From Psychrobacter sp. 28M-43 (GTDB taxonomy: Bacteria; Pseudomonadota; Gammaproteobacteria; Pseudomonadales; Moraxellaceae), in contig NZ_CP061739.1 of NCBI RefSeq assembly GCF_014770435.1, positions 1,178,001-1,242,000 on the forward strand: DNA of 64,000 nt. Direction: 5' to 3'. Below are positions 3,901 to 26,458 of the stretch, piece after piece; positions within the stretch are counted from its first letter, which is position 1; each line of letters starts with the position of its first letter. Both the position numbers and the translations under genes were made by a program. The notes under the pieces were generated by a model. The model had not been told where the DNA came from and ran no database searches. It worked only from the letters and a program-made list of their open reading frames with translations.

Positions 3901-4980
3901 TTAATAACGAGGCGGCACATACATATCATCGGGAATAGGTTCGCGGTAGTACTCATCATCGCGTTTGCGATTGGGTAACTCAATTTCGTCACGAGGCACT
4001 TCTTTGTAAGGGATTTGGTCGAGCAAATGGGCAATACAGTTCAGCCTAGCACGTTTTTTATTATTGCCTTCGACGACCCACCAGGGTGCTTCAGGAATGT
4101 GAGTGCGCTCAAACATGGTTTCTTTTGCTTTGGTGTAATCTTCCCAGCGTCGGCGCGACTGTAGGTCCATTGGTGAGAGTTTCCACTGCTTGAGCGGATC
4201 ATATATTCGGCTCATAAATCGTGCATGTTGCTCATCATCAGTGATAGAAAACCAGTATTTTACTAAGCGAATGCCTGAGCGTACGAGCATACGCTCAAAC
4301 TCTGGTACTGATTGAAAAAACTCTTCATATTGCGCGTCAGTACAAAACCCCATGACACGCTCAACACCTCCGCGGTTGTACCAACTACGGTCAAACAATA
4401 CGATTTCGCCTGCTGCAGGCAAGTGGGCCACGTAACGTTGGAAGTACCACTGCGTTTGCTCGCGCTCAGTGGGAGCCGGCAGGGCAGCTACCCTGCACAC
4501 GCGTGGGTTTAATCGTTGGGTAATGCGTTTAATGGCGCCACCTTTACCAGCAGAATCCCGCCCTTCAAAAATAACGACGATACGCTCACCGCGATCAACT
4601 ACCCAATCTTGTAGTTTTATCAGTTCTCGCTGTAGTCGTACCAACTCTTGAAAGTAGGTGCGTCGATCCAGTTTTTCTTGCTCGCTCATCTCACGTCCGT
4701 TAAAACGAAAGTCACGTGCATAGTCATCTATTTCATTTTCTAGTTCTTCATCATATGTATCGATTAAGTCTTGGTGCATTTTTCGACGTAAATCATCATC
4801 AAGAATGTCTTTTTCGATGCGTTCAGTAAGAATGGCTTGTTCCTGATGGTACCGATCTAAATCCTCCTCAGTCGTTAGAGATTGAAAATCAGCGGTTGCA
4901 AGCGGTTCTGTCATCACCAGTTTTTCAGAGCCAAAAATGACTTGCCTCATTTTTCTTAATAAAATTTTTGTCTTACCCAT
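3901..4980 (-). CDS. ppk2: Polyphosphate kinase 2 (PPK2 family)
   Basis: The enzyme transfers phosphate between polyphosphate and nucleotides, mostly using polyP to phosphorylate GDP or ADP. The call rests on Walker A (GRDSAGKGG), the following RITQRLNPR, Walker B (FDRSWYNR) and the lid-region RRRWEDYTKAKETM. From the ATG at 4980 the protein has 359 residues, including an N-terminal region of about 60 residues before the core. The ATG at 4980 has a good Shine-Dalgarno (aaaggtaa). The open frame continues upstream to 5094 but would run through the hairpin terminator at 5063-5100, so the longer start is rejected. It is a one-domain PPK2. Nucleotide preference cannot be told from sequence alone. 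Confidence 0.93.
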   Translation of the reverse strand: MGKTKILLRKMRQVIFGSEKLVMTEPLATADFQSLTTEEDLDRYHQEQAILTERIEKDILDDDLRRKMHQDLIDTYDEELENEIDDYARDFRFNGREMSEQEKLDRRTYFQELVRLQRELIKLQDWVVDRGERIVVIFEGRDSAGKGGAIKRITQRLNPRVCRVAALPAPTEREQTQWYFQRYVAHLPAAGEIVLFDRSWYNRGGVERVMGFCTDAQYEEFFQSVPEFERMLVRSGIRLVKYWFSITDDEQHARFMSRIYDPLKQWKLSPMDLQSRRRWEDYTKAKETMFERTHIPEAPWWVVEGNNKKRARLNCIAHLLDQIPYKEVPRDEIELPNRKRDDEYYREPIPDDMYVPPRY

Positions 4981-9943: not shown

Positions 9944-10516
9944 ATGACTTCACAAAACATGCCTTCAGAAGAAAACGCGATAGACGTAGATCAATCAAAT
10001 AGCTCGATAGCAACCGATACGGTCGCTGCTAACGATAGCGGCGCTAACATTCATATTAGTGCCGATAATGGCATTGATTTGACTGATATCTTTGAGCCTT
10101 ATTTTCGTCCAGATGCAAACACTATCGTGTGCGGTGCATTAGACGACGAAAAAGTTGCGGCTTTAGCGAAAGCAGGCGTCGAGCTGGTCATCAACTTGCA
10201 GCCTGATGGCGAGTTAAGCTTTGATGAGGCATCGGCGGTTGAGCAGGCAGGTATGTACTACGAACAGCTGCCTATCAGCGGTGCTAAAGAGCTAAAGCAG
10301 CTTAAAATATTGGCATTTGACAATGTGCTACGTCAACATCATGGCAAAAAAGTCGCTATGCATTGTGGGTCGGGCAATAGAGTAGGCGCTGCAATAGCGC
10401 TGCGGGCAGGATGGTTGCGTGGACGTAAGATGGATACGGCTATGGAACGTGGTCGCAGTCATGGTTTGACCAAGCTTGAACAAGAAGTTCATAATCGTTT
10501 GCTAGTACCGCGTTAA
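9944..10516 (+). CDS. DUF442/BLH-type protein tyrosine phosphatase-like protein
   Basis: The 190-residue protein has a disordered acidic N-terminus (about 45 residues) followed by a domain of the DUF442 (beta-lactamase-hydrolase-like phosphatase) family. The CX5R phosphatase loop is visible as HCGSGNRVGA near residue 140. VINLQPDGE and a downstream Arg/Gly-rich helix also match. Family members are dual-specificity-phosphatase-like, and some are fused to persulfide dioxygenases. No such fusion exists here and the substrate is unknown. It starts 58 bp after maoC and may share its transcript. No clear Shine-Dalgarno precedes the ATG. Confidence 0.8.
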   Translation: MTSQNMPSEENAIDVDQSNSSIATDTVAANDSGANIHISADNGIDLTDIFEPYFRPDANTIVCGALDDEKVAALAKAGVELVINLQPDGELSFDEASAVEQAGMYYEQLPISGAKELKQLKILAFDNVLRQHHGKKVAMHCGSGNRVGAAIALRAGWLRGRKMDTAMERGRSHGLTKLEQEVHNRLLVPR

Positions 10517-10591
10517 CTAGATTTGTGGCATTGAATATTATTGCTGTCTTAGACGTGATCAGACTCTAAAAATATCATCGAAATAAATAAT

Positions 10592-10622
10592 AAAAAAGGC
10601 GACCAATGGGTGGCCTTTTTTA
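10592..10622 (+). terminator. Rho-independent terminator after the DUF442 gene
   Basis: Hairpin aaaaaggcgacc-aat-gggtggccttttt (one mismatch), followed by a T-run. It closes the maoC-DUF442 unit. Confidence 0.8.
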
Positions 10623-10794
10623 TTGGCTCATAATTCATTTATACTGGTTCGAATATTTTATATAGTCAAAGAACTACTTGTGTAATCTGTAATCAGCTAG
10701 CTTGTATGCGTTTTAAACTTCTTTGACTATAGCTTACGTCTTACTATCATCTTAAAAACAGAATAATTCATATCACTGGAGCAAGGTAATAATA

Positions 10795-12231
10795 ATGGAT
10801 CATAATACAGAAAATTCTAATACATCTATAAACGCTGACTTTCAAAAAAAATTACGGCAATTATTGACAGATTTGCAGCTTGATGATGCACCTGCTGGCG
10901 GGGCTGTGGCCGTGTATCAAGCAGGTCAGTGCATTGCGCAAGCCAGTACAGGTATGGCGCGTCCTGATATGTCGTGGCAGCCCAATACGTTGGCGATTAA
11001 TTTTTCTACTGGTAAAGGGGTATTGGCAACATTGGTTCATGTGCTGGTTTCGCAGCAGCTGCTTGAATATGACAAACCTATTGCCCATTATTGGCCAGAA
11101 TTTGCTGCAAACGGCAAAGACCAAATTACGTTGCGACAAGTCATGTCACATCAGGCCGATTTGTTTTCGATTCAAAGTATCGATGTCGATAGTGAGACGG
11201 TACTCGATTGGAATACGATGCTGCGCCACATTGCAGCGATGCCCATTACTTCTCCCGAAAATGCTACTAAGTATGACAGCGCTTATAGTGCATTGATCTA
11301 TGGCTGGGTATTGGGCGGCGTAGTAGAGGTGGTTACTCATTTGTCGCTAGCCGAAGCACTGCGCCAGTATCTAACGGAGCCTCTGGGTATTGCCGACAGC
11401 TGCTATTTTGGTGTGCCAGATAGTAAAGTAGATCAGGTGGCAAAATTGGCCAAAGATTTTGAAGAAACAGAGGATACAAGCTCTCAATTAAAATCGAGAC
11501 GTCAAAAACCAACCTTAAAAGTAGACTCTCAAGAGACTTTACGTACTTATGCAAGCTTACCTAGTTATCACTGCTGGCAGCAGAAAATGATAAATGATAA
11601 GCGTGCAGCTGAGACGCAAAATAGCCTTGATGACAGCCTTGATGAAAATCTAGATAGCTCTGATATTGATAACGCACAGCCTGTATTAAATACTGCGCGT
11701 ATCAATAGCTTATATTTTAATACCAGTCAGCTCAATCTAAAAAACTATAAGGCGGCGCTGATACCTGCTGGCAAACATGTCCTTGATTATCATAAGCGCC
11801 AAACATTACAGGCGGTCATTCCAGCGGCAAATGGTGTCGCTTCCGCTAAAGCACTGGCAACGATCTATGCAATGCTCGCTAATGGCGGTATATGGCAAGG
11901 AAAGGCACTGATTGATAGTGCTACTTTTGAGCAGTTATCTACTCCGCAGGTTAAGGGTTTAGATGCGGTTATGCCAGCAGCTATGAAATGGCGATTGGGC
12001 TATCATAGATTATTTAACTTGTATGCTAACAACGATGATACGGATAAGAGAAAGAGTCCTGCTTTATCAGGATTTGGGCATATGGGATATAACGGATCGG
12101 TTGCTTGGTGCGACCCTGAGCGCCAATTGTCATTTGCTTTTATTCATAATTTTGATACCACCATGCTCAATGACGTTCGTCAGTTTGCGCTGACAGAAGC
12201 CGTCTTGAGCTGGGTAGAAGAGATACTTTAA
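10795..12231 (+). CDS. Beta-lactamase-fold serine hydrolase (class C/EstB-type)
   Basis: This penicillin-binding-protein-fold hydrolase is probably an esterase or peptidase rather than a beta-lactamase. The catalytic SxxK motif is STGK at residues 71-74. The YxN position reads YSA (near residues 164-166), as in EstB-like esterases. A third-box-like GHMGYNG lies near residue 430. No signal peptide is visible, so a cytosolic enzyme is likely. The length of 478 exceeds the usual 380-420 because of an acidic, Ser/Asp-rich insertion around residues 222-302. A Shine-Dalgarno (aaggtaa) precedes the ATG. Confidence 0.85.
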   Translation: MDHNTENSNTSINADFQKKLRQLLTDLQLDDAPAGGAVAVYQAGQCIAQASTGMARPDMSWQPNTLAINFSTGKGVLATLVHVLVSQQLLEYDKPIAHYWPEFAANGKDQITLRQVMSHQADLFSIQSIDVDSETVLDWNTMLRHIAAMPITSPENATKYDSAYSALIYGWVLGGVVEVVTHLSLAEALRQYLTEPLGIADSCYFGVPDSKVDQVAKLAKDFEETEDTSSQLKSRRQKPTLKVDSQETLRTYASLPSYHCWQQKMINDKRAAETQNSLDDSLDENLDSSDIDNAQPVLNTARINSLYFNTSQLNLKNYKAALIPAGKHVLDYHKRQTLQAVIPAANGVASAKALATIYAMLANGGIWQGKALIDSATFEQLSTPQVKGLDAVMPAAMKWRLGYHRLFNLYANNDDTDKRKSPALSGFGHMGYNGSVAWCDPERQLSFAFIHNFDTTMLNDVRQFALTEAVLSWVEEIL

Positions 12232-22537: not shown

Positions 22538-22665
22538 GCCTCAAAAATATGCTTAAGCAGTATAAGAATCTTCTTCGCCACCAGTATGTGAAAGGCTTAA
22601 TTATGCGATGAATAAATACTCAAAACTTCCTCTATTAAGTTTCCTTTATATATCTAATTTTTAGG

Positions 22666-22686
22666 AAGATGAATAAAATTCATCTT
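22666..22686. promoter_or_regulatory. Candidate MetR operator upstream of mesX-mesD
   Basis: A perfect 9-bp inverted repeat (aagatgaat / attcatctt, 3-base spacer) contains the published MetR consensus TGAA-N5-TTCA at 22670-22682. It lies about 100 bp upstream of the mesX ATG, the usual position for a LysR-type activator. A possible -10 (tatgat) is at 22728-22733. MetR is not encoded in this window, so the regulator is inferred. Confidence 0.65.
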
Positions 22687-22787
22687 ATGTTTAAATTGTA
22701 TCGTTTTTATTCATGTTTAGATTTCGGTATGATTCACCTCATACACAGATTTGGTTTTATCTCAGATAAATAAGGTAGCGGATCACC

Positions 22788-23825
22788 ATGAGTAAAGAAT
22801 TCAATTGTTCAATTAAGCACATTCGTTTTGACGAAAACTATCAGCCTGCAGATAGTACGCGTTTGACGACTAACTTTGCAAATTTGGCACGCGGCGAGCA
22901 CCGCCAAGAGAACTTACGCAAAACGTTAACCATGATTAATAACCGCTTCAATGCATTGGCGTATTGGGATAATCTGACAGCAGATCGTTATTCTGTTGAA
23001 GTTGATATCATTTCTGTCGATCTGGATGTTAAAGGCAATGGTCAGACCTTTCCTATTATCGAAACGCTAAAAACAACGATTGTGGATCACAAAGAAAACA
23101 AGCGTATCGACGGCATGGTTGGCAACAGTTTCTCATCTTACGTGCGTGATTATGACTTTAGTATTGTGTTACCAGAGCATCGCGACAAAAACCTAGCATC
23201 CATAACGCCAGATAATTTTGGTGAGTTGCACGGCAAGCTGTTTCAATATTTATTGAATTCAGAGGCTTACAACGCTCATTTTCACAAAAAACCTGTGATT
23301 TGCCTGAGCGTGTCAACCAGCAAGACTTACTACCGTACTGTCAATCAGCATCCTGTATTGGGCATTGAATACAAGCAAGATGAATACTCGTTGACCGACG
23401 ACTACTTTCATAAAATGGGCTTAACGGTACGTTATTTTAAGCCTGAAGGTAGCGCCGCGCCATTAGCATTTTATTTTGCAGGGGACTTGCTCAGTGATTA
23501 CACCGATCTTGAGCTGATTAGTGCAATCAGTACTATGGAGACCTTTCAGAAGATTTACCGTCCTGAGATTTACAATGCCAACTCAAGCGCTGGTCAAGTG
23601 TATCAACCTAGCCTGAATTACCAAGACTATTCATTGACGCAAGTAGTTTATGACCGCGCTGAACGTAGTCAAATGGCAGTAACCCAAGGTAGGTTTACCG
23701 AGACGCATTTTATTAAGCCGTATCAAACAATCCTTGAGAAATGGGCTGCAAGCTATGATGTAACAGGCGATACTGCTGAAAAAGAAGCTGCTGATAAAGA
23801 AACGGCTAGGAAGCAAGCCGCTTAA
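22788..23825 (+). CDS. mesX: MesX, DUF1852 putative oxygenase for folate-independent methionine synthase
   Basis: The 345-residue cytosolic protein belongs to DUF1852. In Acinetobacter baylyi the DUF1852 protein MesX is required for MesD-dependent methionine synthesis and is proposed to be an oxygenase (published work on four folate-independent methionine synthase families). Visible family segments include RFDENYQPADSTRLTTNFAN, LTMINNRFNALAYWDN and VGNSFSSYVRDYDFSIVLPE. No cofactor motif is obvious. It is 54 bp upstream of mesD, and a MetR-type palindrome lies in the promoter. A Shine-Dalgarno (aaggtagc) is at long spacing. The assignment relies on family recognition plus neighbourhood. Confidence 0.88.
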   Translation: MSKEFNCSIKHIRFDENYQPADSTRLTTNFANLARGEHRQENLRKTLTMINNRFNALAYWDNLTADRYSVEVDIISVDLDVKGNGQTFPIIETLKTTIVDHKENKRIDGMVGNSFSSYVRDYDFSIVLPEHRDKNLASITPDNFGELHGKLFQYLLNSEAYNAHFHKKPVICLSVSTSKTYYRTVNQHPVLGIEYKQDEYSLTDDYFHKMGLTVRYFKPEGSAAPLAFYFAGDLLSDYTDLELISAISTMETFQKIYRPEIYNANSSAGQVYQPSLNYQDYSLTQVVYDRAERSQMAVTQGRFTETHFIKPYQTILEKWAASYDVTGDTAEKEAADKETARKQAA

Positions 23826-23879
23826 CTGAGCATCACTCATCAACATAATAAAAAATAAATTAATTAGAAGATAAATTGT

Positions 23880-24908
23880 ATGAAACTACTATTACCGACG
23901 TCTACCGCTGGCAGCTTACCAAAACCTTCTTGGCTAGCAGAACCCGAGAAAATTTGGTCACCTTGGGCGTTAGAGGGCGAGCAGTTGCTTGAAGCCAAGC
24001 AAGATGCGCTACGCGTATCATTGCAAGAACAACAGCATGCAGGGATTGATATTGTCAGTGATGGCGAGCAGACCCGTCAGCATTTTGTGACTACATTCAT
24101 CGAACACCTTGATGGTGTCGACTTTGAGAAGCGTGAGACGGTCAAAATCCGTAATCGCTACGATGCGAGCGTGCCATCAGTCGTTGGTGCGGTGAGCCGT
24201 CCAAAGTCAGTGTTCGTTGATGATGCCAAATTTTTACGTCAACAAACCGATCAGCCAATCAAATGGGCGTTGCCAGGGCCGATGACGATGATTGATACGT
24301 TATATGACGGTCATTATAAAAGCCGTGAAAAATTGGCTTGGGAATTTGCTAAAATCCTGAATCAAGAAGCAAAAGAATTAGAAGCGGCTGGCGTCGATAT
24401 TATCCAGTTTGATGAGCCTGCATTTAACGTGTTCTTTGATGATGTGAACGACTGGGGTATTGCAACTTTAGAGCGTGCCATTGAAGGCCTAAAATGTGAG
24501 ACAGCTGTCCATATTTGCTACGGCTATGGCATCAAAGCCAATACCGATTGGAAAAAGACACTGGGCTCAGAGTGGCGCGAATACGAAAAAGCATTTCCTA
24601 AACTGCAACAGTCGAAAATCGATATTATCTCACTGGAGTGTCAAAACTCACGTGTACCCATGGATCTGATTGAGTTGATTCGTGGTAAAAAAGTGATGGT
24701 CGGTGCCATTGATGTGGCAACCAACACTATCGAGACACCAGAAGAAGTGGCAGATACGCTACGCAAAGCGCTACAATTTGTCGATGCTGATAAGCTATAT
24801 CCTGCGACCAACTGCGGTATGGCACCTTTGTCTCGCCAAGTCGCACGTGGTAAGCTCGCGGCATTAAGCGCTGGTGCTCAAATCGTTCGTCAAGAACTGA
24901 CTGCTTAG
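23880..24908 (+). CDS. mesD: MesD, folate-independent methionine synthase (MetE C-terminal domain only)
   Basis: The enzyme transfers a methyl group to homocysteine. At 342 residues it corresponds only to the catalytic C-terminal barrel of MetE. It lacks the N-terminal folate-binding half of the usual 750-residue enzyme. All zinc ligands are visible: His211 and Cys213 (AVHICYGYG), Glu253 (ISLECQNS) and Cys312 (TNCGMAPLS). The substrate loop is IIQFDEPAF near residue 175. It sits in tandem with the DUF1852 gene, which matches the MesD group and its need for MesX. The methyl donor of MesD is not established. An upstream MetR-type site implies methionine control. Confidence 0.9.
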   Translation: MKLLLPTSTAGSLPKPSWLAEPEKIWSPWALEGEQLLEAKQDALRVSLQEQQHAGIDIVSDGEQTRQHFVTTFIEHLDGVDFEKRETVKIRNRYDASVPSVVGAVSRPKSVFVDDAKFLRQQTDQPIKWALPGPMTMIDTLYDGHYKSREKLAWEFAKILNQEAKELEAAGVDIIQFDEPAFNVFFDDVNDWGIATLERAIEGLKCETAVHICYGYGIKANTDWKKTLGSEWREYEKAFPKLQQSKIDIISLECQNSRVPMDLIELIRGKKVMVGAIDVATNTIETPEEVADTLRKALQFVDADKLYPATNCGMAPLSRQVARGKLAALSAGAQIVRQELTA

Positions 24909-24921
24909 AGTTTAGCCGTTT

Positions 24922-24947
24922 AGGAAATTCTATTTAAAGAATTTCCT
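24922..24947 (+). terminator. Hairpin between mesD and flavin reductase
   Basis: Perfect 10-bp arms aggaaattct and agaatttcct with loop atttaa. It is followed by only ttg, so it is either a weak terminator or an mRNA processing/stability element that separates mesD from the next gene. Confidence 0.5.
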
Positions 24948-24972
24948 TTGCAAAACTAAAATTGAAGCACAA

Positions 24973-24997
24973 TTTTTTAACGTTATTTTTTAACGTT
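24973..24997. repeat. 13-bp direct repeat upstream of the flavin reductase
   Basis: ttttttaacgtt occurs at 24973-24984 and 24986-24997, separated by one A. It lies just upstream of the flavin reductase start. Confidence 0.6.
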
Positions 24998-25013
24998 TCT
25001 CGGGATTGAAGCA

Positions 25014-25529
25014 ATGATTAAAGATAGGATTGACGCGACCGACTTTAGAGATGCCATGTCTTTGCTAACGACTGCGGTCAATGTGGTGACCACAGCAGGT
25101 GCAACGGGCGTACATGGGTTTACAGCATCGGCAGTATGTAGCGTCACAGACACACCGCCGACATTACTTGTCTGTATGAATCAAACGTCTCGGTCACATA
25201 GCTACTTTCTGGAAAATAAGATTTTAAGTGTCAATGTGTTAGGCGCGCAACATGAGCAGCTGTCCAATGCTTTTGCATCTAAACTGTGTTCAGAAGAACG
25301 GTTCGAATATGGTTCTTGGACACAATTACAAACAGGCGCTCCTGTGTTAGAAGATGCCTTGGTCAGCTTTGATTGCGAGATTGAACAAATTCAAGAAGTC
25401 GGCACGCATAGCGTCTTTATGTGCCGCGTTGTCGCCATCAATCAGGCTGAGCCACAAGGCGGCACTGATGAAGGGTTGGTTTACTTTAACCGTGCCTATT
25501 CTAGAGTTGGGCAAGTAGAGCTTATTTAA
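25014..25529 (+). CDS. Flavin reductase family protein (FMN-binding split barrel)
   Basis: This NAD(P)H:flavin oxidoreductase type protein has 171 residues. The family pattern is visible: AVNVVTTAGATGVHGFTASAVCSVT (read residues 18-42), TLLVCMNQTSRSH, LSVNVLGAQHEQLSNAFA and the C-terminal GLVYFNRAYSRVG. Such proteins supply reduced FMN to two-component oxygenases. It is directly downstream of mesX-mesD in the same direction, so it may feed reduced flavin to MesX. That link is inference. The stop codon starts a 14-bp tandem duplication. Confidence 0.88.
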   Translation: MIKDRIDATDFRDAMSLLTTAVNVVTTAGATGVHGFTASAVCSVTDTPPTLLVCMNQTSRSHSYFLENKILSVNVLGAQHEQLSNAFASKLCSEERFEYGSWTQLQTGAPVLEDALVSFDCEIEQIQEVGTHSVFMCRVVAINQAEPQGGTDEGLVYFNRAYSRVGQVELI

Positions 25530-25554
25530 TCCAACATCTATAATCCAACACCTA
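25527..25554. repeat. 14-bp tandem duplication starting at the flavin reductase stop codon
   Basis: taatccaacatcta (25527-25540) is followed directly by taatccaacaccta (25541-25554), one mismatch. The first base is the first base of the TAA stop. Confidence 0.8.
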
Positions 25555-25642
25555 AGCATATGGACTATTGCTCGTTCAACATTAAGCAGTCATTTAACTA
25601 TAATAATCATCTCATTAAATCTAAATAAGAAGTAACTATTCT

Positions 25643-26458
25643 GTGGAATTAATAACTTTTTTAATAATAGGGGCGCTAGCAGGATTTGCTGCAGGGCTAT
25701 TTGGAGTGGGCGGTGGCACTATTATCGTACCACTGCTATTTATTGTCTTTACGCAAATGGGTTACAGTCCTGACACTATTATGCATTTGGCCTTGGGTAC
25801 TTCACTGGCAACCATTATTGTCACATCCATAAGCTCGCTCATGGCGCATAACAAAAAGGGCGCAGTCATGTGGCCTGTCTTTAAAAATCTGACGCCAGGC
25901 TTAGCAATAGGCTGTTTTTTAGGAGCAGGGATCGCAGGTCAGATATCTGGGTTGTATCTGCAGCTGATTGTTGGTGTGTTTTTGCTTTGGGTCGCTTATA
26001 AAATGTTTATGGGTGGTAAAAAGAAAGCGAATAGCGAAGCTGGCAATGTCCATATAGCTTTACCTTCGAAGCCTAAGCAGCTAGCAGCAGGGGCGGGTAT
26101 CGGTATCGCTTCTGCTATTTTTGGCATTGGCGGTGGTAGCTTAACCGTACCTTATCTCACGCGTTACGGTGTGGTTATGCAAAAAGCCGTTGGAACCTCA
26201 GCCGCTTGTGGCTTACCTATCGCCATTGCAGGTGCGCTAGGATTTATGTTCTTTGGCATGCAAGCTCAAGTCGACGTGCCCAATACGATTGGCTTTGTTC
26301 ACATCTATGCTTTTTTAGGCATTAGCATTATGAGCTTCTTTACCGCCAAGCTAGGCGCAAAAGTCGCTCACGCATTATCGCCGCAGTTGCTGAAAAAATG
26401 CTTTGCAGTACTGTTGACCGTCGTAGGCTGTTACTTCTTATATAAAGGATTGCTCTAA
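25643..26458 (+). CDS. TSUP-family (TauE/SafE) membrane transporter
   Basis: This is an inner-membrane anion exporter/importer family, often handling sulfite, sulfoacetate or other sulfur compounds. It has 271 residues with eight or so membrane helices and the duplicated motif GFAAGLFGVGGGTIIVP near residue 12 and IASAIFGIGGGSLTVPY near residue 152. The start is GTG. It follows the mesX-mesD-flavin reductase genes by 113 bp in the same direction. A role in sulfur metabolism would suit the neighbourhood but is not shown by sequence. Confidence 0.88.
   Translation: MELITFLIIGALAGFAAGLFGVGGGTIIVPLLFIVFTQMGYSPDTIMHLALGTSLATIIVTSISSLMAHNKKGAVMWPVFKNLTPGLAIGCFLGAGIAGQISGLYLQLIVGVFLLWVAYKMFMGGKKKANSEAGNVHIALPSKPKQLAAGAGIGIASAIFGIGGGSLTVPYLTRYGVVMQKAVGTSAACGLPIAIAGALGFMFFGMQAQVDVPNTIGFVHIYAFLGISIMSFFTAKLGAKVAHALSPQLLKKCFAVLLTVVGCYFLYKGLL

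Follow-up and report, generated by a model that had tools for sequence, protein, structure and literature searches.

The 64,000-nucleotide stretch of Psychrobacter sp. 28M-43 DNA analysed here (the window; contig NZ_CP061739.1, positions 1,178,001 to 1,242,000) carries four intact open reading frames (ORFs) in tandem on the + strand, which encode MesX, MesD, a flavin reductase and a permease of the TSUP family. The locus is a member of the known MesX-MesD system together with its known reductase partner and a TSUP permease. With a MetR-type palindrome before mesX, the genes probably form a methionine synthase unit that is aerobic, needs neither B12 nor folate, responds to homocysteine and includes the reductase, the permease and control by MetR. 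The four-gene locus is real and not a product of chance. Each ORF is intact and scores above its Pfam cut-off, which confirms the gene identities given in an initial annotation made from the sequence of the window alone.

22788..23825, + strand: mesX (DUF1852, PF08908), putative oxygenase, 345 aa; PF08908 575.7 bits against a cut-off of 25
23880..24908, + strand: mesD, core methionine synthase without the folate half, 342 aa; NF006589/PRK09121 702.7 bits against a cut-off of 392
25014..25529, + strand: flavin reductase, RutF-like, 171 aa; PF01613 (Flavin_Reduct) 132.2 bits against a cut-off of 27
25643..26458, + strand: TSUP/TauE-SafE family permease, 271 aa, GTG start; PF01925 178.1 bits against a cut-off of 32.6
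22666..22686, no strand: perfect 21-bp inverted repeat with the MetR-type box TGAATAAAATTCA (22670-22682), 118 bp 5' of the mesX start
23827..23839, no strand: weaker box-like site TGAGCATCACTCA in the mesX-mesD gap, which may be chance
24922..24947, + strand: 10-pair hairpin in the mesD-reductase gap, called from folding energy; possible partial terminator or processing site

The MesX-MesD pair

Based on profile searches the MesD of the window aligns to positions 425-753 of 754 in the MetE model, i.e. the catalytic half. Meth_synt_2 matches with 132 bits (cut-off 21), while Meth_synt_1, the N-terminal folate half, stays below threshold (21.3 against 27), in line with the earlier claim that MesD lacks this half. 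The protein matches the solved structure 3rpd across 340 residues (E 3e-199), and in phmmer it scores 700 bits against the MesD of Acinetobacter baylyi (locus L104), above the 560 bits given as the MesD threshold in PMC7857596. The zinc ligands His211, Cys213, Glu253 and Cys312, which had been numbered correctly as counted on the 3rpd alignment, are kept in 147 of 147 MesD proteins compared. Ser12, Glu63 and Asp178 miss at most once among the same 147. PMC7857596 names Ser22, Glu73 and Asp188 of PDB 3RPD as homocysteine ligands, and an offset of +10 would make the two sets of residues equivalent. PF08908 covers MesX over the full model (positions 1-323 of 323). The window MesX is 61-74% identical to 16 relatives in one alignment (A1) and 87-99% identical to the MesX of Psychrobacter loci L069-L073, the closest named among the matches listed.

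For comparison we assembled 148 mesX loci, comprising the best 80 of at least 580 confirmed genome-contig matches, 42 loci from the 44 hit genomes of a phylum sample (the window's own genome and one of the same genus being left out) and, picked by hand, 18 further Moraxellaceae loci and 8 plasmid regions. Of these loci 69 are from Moraxellaceae and 79 from elsewhere; totals of 149 include the window. Related genomes are each counted, and the counts are not population frequencies; MesX is distinct in 146 of 149 rows over the compared columns, and the three identical pairs are all from Moraxellaceae. The MesX alignment holds all 148 loci and the window, the MesD alignment 146 loci and the window. 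Because ORFs and starts come from mechanical calling, distances to starts are approximate. Reductases were sought systematically only as relatives of PF01613 and PF03358 members.

MesD adjoins mesX in 146 of the 148 loci, with a spacing of 54 bp in the window; the exceptions are L079, at a contig end, and L116, a second and lone MesX copy. In L116 (Acinetobacter sp. S54) this second mesX (9995-10972) has neither MesD nor reductase beside it and is preceded, 118 bp upstream, by the box-like site TGAATTTCACTCA; the full unit of the same named strain is found in L111. The genome of L164 holds two extra partial mesX matches (G277:C1:2175963-2176446), of which one contains an internal stop; they appear to be remnants of a decayed second copy. 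In two Alcaligenes loci (L113, L120) a full-length MetE-like gene of about 764 aa and a LysR-cluster gene stand directly before mesX-mesD, which places two B12-independent synthases side by side.

The contig of the window measures 3.1 Mb, and the window's genome has a single MesX. MesD is its sole PF01717 protein, and thus no MetE is seen there; MetH and MetF domains have one match each.

The core idea is not new, since MesX and MesD, the need for oxygen, the nearby flavin reductase and a predicted flavin cofactor all appear in the available text of PMC7857596, published in 2021. According to that paper MesD of relatives needs MesX and O2 and depends neither on MetF (methyl-tetrahydrofolate) nor on cobalamin. 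The initial annotation had placed both needs in Acinetobacter. The requirement for mesX and mesD was indeed established in A. baylyi, whereas that for oxygen was demonstrated in E. coli carrying genes of Sphingomonas koreensis (PMC7857596). The A. baylyi system (ACIAD3524-ACIAD3523, reductase ACIAD3522), represented by L104, shares the order mesX-mesD-reductase with the window; it has no TSUP within the counted distance. In addition to the shared genes, the window has a linked TSUP and a palindromic MetR box. The S. koreensis system (Ga0059261_2928-2929, reductase 2931) likewise pairs MesX-MesD, shown to need oxygen, with a nearby reductase (PMC7857596), but is alphaproteobacterial. The PF08908-MetE1 tandem had been noted in 2011 (PMC3228920). 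MesD homologs seem to let two strains escape N2O (PMC13059711), and MesX is not named in the available text of PMC12366255, PMC11003636 and PMC11378808. As the initial annotation held, the literature searched establishes no methyl donor of MesD, and no mechanism for MesX was found in titles and abstracts of open-access papers.

Reductases and permeases beside mesX-mesD

In Moraxellaceae a PF01613-type reductase follows mesD on the same strand in 67 of 69 loci, L079 and L116 again being the misses. Outside this family, a PF01613 reductase is adjacent in 12 of 79 units and a PF03358 FMN (flavin mononucleotide) reductase in 7 of 79. Altogether a reductase adjoins 86 of the 148 units (67+12+7) and is not seen in 62. 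Pfam confirms all seven PF03358 proteins and 9 of the 12 non-Moraxellaceae PF01613 proteins; the other three rest on phmmer. Among 1228 other genes in the loci only one is such a reductase, and it is the L210 unit's own, set further off.

The reductases differ in type. In the PF01613 tree, 15 of whose 31 inner branches are open, an HsaB-like group unites several Betaproteobacteria, a Pseudomonas and one Moraxellaceae locus (L206), while RutF-like groups hold Moraxellaceae with Wohlfahrtiimonas and Rhizobiales with the window genome's own RutF-like protein. The PF03358 proteins belong to a family unrelated to PF01613, and the one in L130 passes the MsuE model (TIGR03566); six of them lie upstream of mesX, and the seventh, in L164, separates mesX from mesD. 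From these sequences we infer separate recruitments of reductases to mesXD. The L123 contig carries the label Bacillus subtilis SK6B4, but the reductase of its unit is almost the same as the one in L131 (Pseudochrobactrum), and this locus is probably contamination or mislabelling.

The window's genome encodes two PF01613 proteins and five TSUPs. The window reductase is 55% identical to the second PF01613 protein, whose gene stands in what we take to be a rut (pyrimidine use) cluster, and scores 202.2 bits against the RutF equivalog TIGR03615, below the cut-off of 254.75. This identity, together with the rut setting of the second gene, makes the window reductase look like a RutF paralogue tied to mesXD.

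Of the 69 Moraxellaceae loci, 42 have an adjacent TSUP gene downstream of the reductase and in the same orientation; elsewhere 11 of 79 units have an adjacent one, divergent upstream in seven and convergent downstream in four. Pfam confirms the seven of these 11 that were scanned, plus the TSUP of L124. The three arrangements match three clades in the TSUP tree, where long joining branches leave the mutual order of the clades unsure. The background is five TSUPs among the 1228 other genes, of which two (L074, L091) are the unit's own at slightly greater distance, two (L124, L187) lie near units and one (L159) is a weak match. These comparisons support an association of TSUP with mesXD; export of a sulfur compound, which the initial annotation had suggested, would be one possible role. 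The window permease shares the PF01925 match with TauE/SafE permeases and differs in being linked to methionine synthesis. The initial annotation had made its proposal hang in part on both genes being linked to mesD in relatives, and they are.

In the literature searched, supplementary tables lying outside its scope, we found no paper that joins TSUP with a methionine synthase and no description of a TSUP link to mesXD. The words TauE, transporter and riboswitch are absent from the main text of PMC7857596, as are COG0730, sulfite and FMN from that of PMC4239095.

MetR boxes and expression of the unit

The palindrome before mesX in the window carries ATGAATAAAATTCAT and fits the published MetR consensus ATGAA-N5-TTCAT (PMC4239095), with the box at 22669-22683. 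A strict box lies within 400 bp upstream of mesX in 63 of 149 loci compared with about 3% of other genes; for a relaxed box the numbers are 126 of 149 and 92 of 1313, respectively. In 2014 PMC4239095 placed PF08908-metE2, i.e. the same gene pair with the same box as in the window, in the MetR regulon. Its available text reports no MetR in Moraxellaceae (four genomes), whereas we find MetR-like relatives (E ≤ 1e-40) in 32 of 41 Moraxellaceae genomes and boxes before many mesX genes. The regulator is present in all 17 of these genomes that have MesX and in 15 of the 24 that do not. In the window's genome the best model for this protein is MetR (281.7 bits, below the equivalog cut-off of 382) and a box lies just upstream of its own gene. 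Against a LysR-type query from L117, for which MetR is also the best model (222.3 bits, below 382), the protein scores 213 bits and the next LysR protein of the genome 48 bits.

Boxes also accompany the partner genes. Six of the seven PF03358 units carry their MetR box upstream of the FMN reductase and next to a divergent LysR gene; L164 has none. All seven divergent TSUPs have a box about 68-118 bp from their start, in the gap common to TSUP and mesX, and such boxes are not assignable to one gene. For the convergent or distant TSUPs the box is the gene's own in L188, is shared with a divergent LysR gene in L161 and lies at ~101 bp in L124; none is found upstream of the TSUP in L187, while L141 and L192 run into contig ends. 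The control rate in 200 bp is 26 of 1259. None of 79 PF01613 reductases has a box of its own. A cobalamin riboswitch aimed at mesX was detected in L150, L193 and L198 among 26 loci scanned, mostly chosen as box-less. In L151, an Acetobacter plasmid, such a riboswitch (4532-4763, - strand) faces away from mesX toward a gene annotated as Rieske 2Fe-2S, suggesting B12 control of this neighbour.

Gaps within Moraxellaceae units are short (medians 46, 80 and 59 bp). The segment of the window with the mesD-reductase hairpin (24900-24990) has a minimum free energy of -20.4 kcal/mol (z -3.44), with no consensus terminator listed in the gap; a promoter-like site lies 5' of the TSUP gene and is no commoner there than in shuffles. 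In A. baumannii B12 lowers the DUF1852 gene by log2 -8.33 and the flavin reductase by -2.52 (PMC12892962). Hairpin, promoter-like site and the weaker reductase response together suggest partial rather than full co-expression. By way of homocysteine, the MetR boxes could explain the strong B12 repression described for Acinetobacter.

Proposed pathway, alternatives and mobile copies

Methionine is essential, and the source of the methyl group that MesX-MesD uses has been open since 2021. In the pathway that we favour, MesD would bind homocysteine on its zinc and accept a methyl group, which MesX, through an unrecognised fold, would free or present from a common metabolite with O2 and, most likely, free reduced flavin. 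The flavin reductase would supply this flavin from NAD(P)H and could be replaced by host reductases. E. coli has reductases of its own. The TSUP permease would move a small anionic substrate or by-product, and a MetR-like activator at the palindrome before mesX would induce the unit once homocysteine builds up, as it does when MetH lacks B12. Flavin use by MesX, the role of the TSUP and control by MetR are inferred steps. Supply of FMNH2 to MesX, as the initial annotation proposed, gains from the two unrelated FMN reductase families adjoining mesXD and from the box before six of seven FMN reductases; the flavin idea itself had been published (PMC7857596), and it is plausible and strengthened by these genomic patterns, not proven.

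Recruitment of two unrelated reductase families and of three TSUP lineages to one gene pair, if it took place, would make reduced flavin and a small anion likely participants in the reaction and would reduce the search for the methyl source to a short list of assays. Membership of reductase and TSUP in the unit would narrow this search. More tentatively, and in our view rather doubtfully, the genes may constitute one MetR-controlled methyl-generating pathway in which MesX, an oxygenase with a fold new in this role, releases the methyl group from a central metabolite by means of O2 and free reduced flavin, while the TSUP carries the small anion that remains or is imported; that unrelated reductases and permeases were recruited repeatedly would then be a signature of the MesX reaction.

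Several observations weigh against the favoured pathway. For the predicted fold of MesX no known oxygenase matched at E ≤ 0.001, with weak rows only, and the label putative oxygenase is a prediction. Moreover, outside Moraxellaceae no reductase of the PF01613 or PF03358 families adjoins 60 of the 79 units, and mesX plus mesD rescued E. coli on M9 glucose medium with no dedicated reductase added (PMC7857596). These last two results leave the strict three-protein requirement of the initial annotation unsupported as worded.

The first of these points touches a possible, though unlikely, alternative in which MesX is a non-heme iron oxygenase with two His and a carboxylate, and the reductase keeps the iron or a partner reduced or feeds electrons, the flavin not activating O2. 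His148, His188 and Cys172 are the only His or Cys residues invariant (at most one miss) in 149 MesX proteins, together with six Asp and six Glu that are equally invariant. Sequence and fold searches reveal no resemblance of MesX to known flavin oxygenases, its weak nearest look-alikes in fold being acyl-CoA-binding GNAT enzymes, and the scarcity of adjacent reductases outside Moraxellaceae also fits an iron enzyme. On the other hand, two unrelated FMN reductase families adjoin mesXD, one of them MsuE-type, and the known partners of MsuE-type reductases use free FMNH2. RutA/RutF and MsuD/MsuE are two-component FMNH2-dependent oxygenases; those mesXD units that have an adjacent reductase resemble them in its separate RutF/HpaC or MsuE type beside a putative oxygenase, but the sequence and fold searches matched MesX to no such oxygenase.

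It is improbable that reductase and TSUP are mere neighbours serving unrelated sulfur or flavin metabolism and that the unit consists of mesX-mesD. Sufficiency of the pair in E. coli (PMC7857596), the 60 units without an adjacent reductase and the 68 of 79 non-Moraxellaceae units without an adjacent TSUP agree with such a two-gene unit. The TSUP is also not universal, being not seen in 13 of 24 named Acinetobacter loci. However, linkage recurs with non-homologous reductases and three TSUP clades while such genes are nearly absent from the other genes of the loci, MetR boxes precede the FMN reductase and some TSUP genes, and B12 lowers the reductase too in A. baumannii (PMC12892962).

As to the methyl source, an organosulfur origin deserves mention. 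Sulfonate metabolism is known to involve reductases of the MsuE type as well as permeases of the TauE type. That MesX takes the methyl group from e.g. methylsulfonate, the TSUP exporting leftover sulfite, would accord with these roles and with the TIGR03566 and PF01925 matches, but is very improbable. M9 glucose medium is normally free of organosulfur compounds. On this medium mesX and mesD are functional in E. coli (PMC7857596); moreover, B12 raises sfnG and msuE yet lowers the DUF1852 gene in A. baumannii (PMC12892962), and the eight annotated plasmid regions name no sulfonate oxygenase, although one of them (L154) carries a gene with an alkyl sulfatase domain about 4 kb away.

MesX was found on 209 of 72,556 plasmid records, a few of them chromosome-sized, from Pantoea, Acinetobacter, Agrobacterium, Acetobacter, Rahnella, Rhodococcus and other hosts, and mesX-mesD may thus travel on plasmids; the eight plasmid regions among the loci are L149-L156. 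In two IMG/VR contigs (L062, L063) mesX-mesD lies beside phage-type genes near the contig ends, MesX occurs in 2 of 50,697 phage records (both Acinetobacter phage MD-2021a), and the PHROGs families phrog_30831 and phrog_25791 match both proteins. These phage-linked copies may represent a prophage edge or phage cargo.

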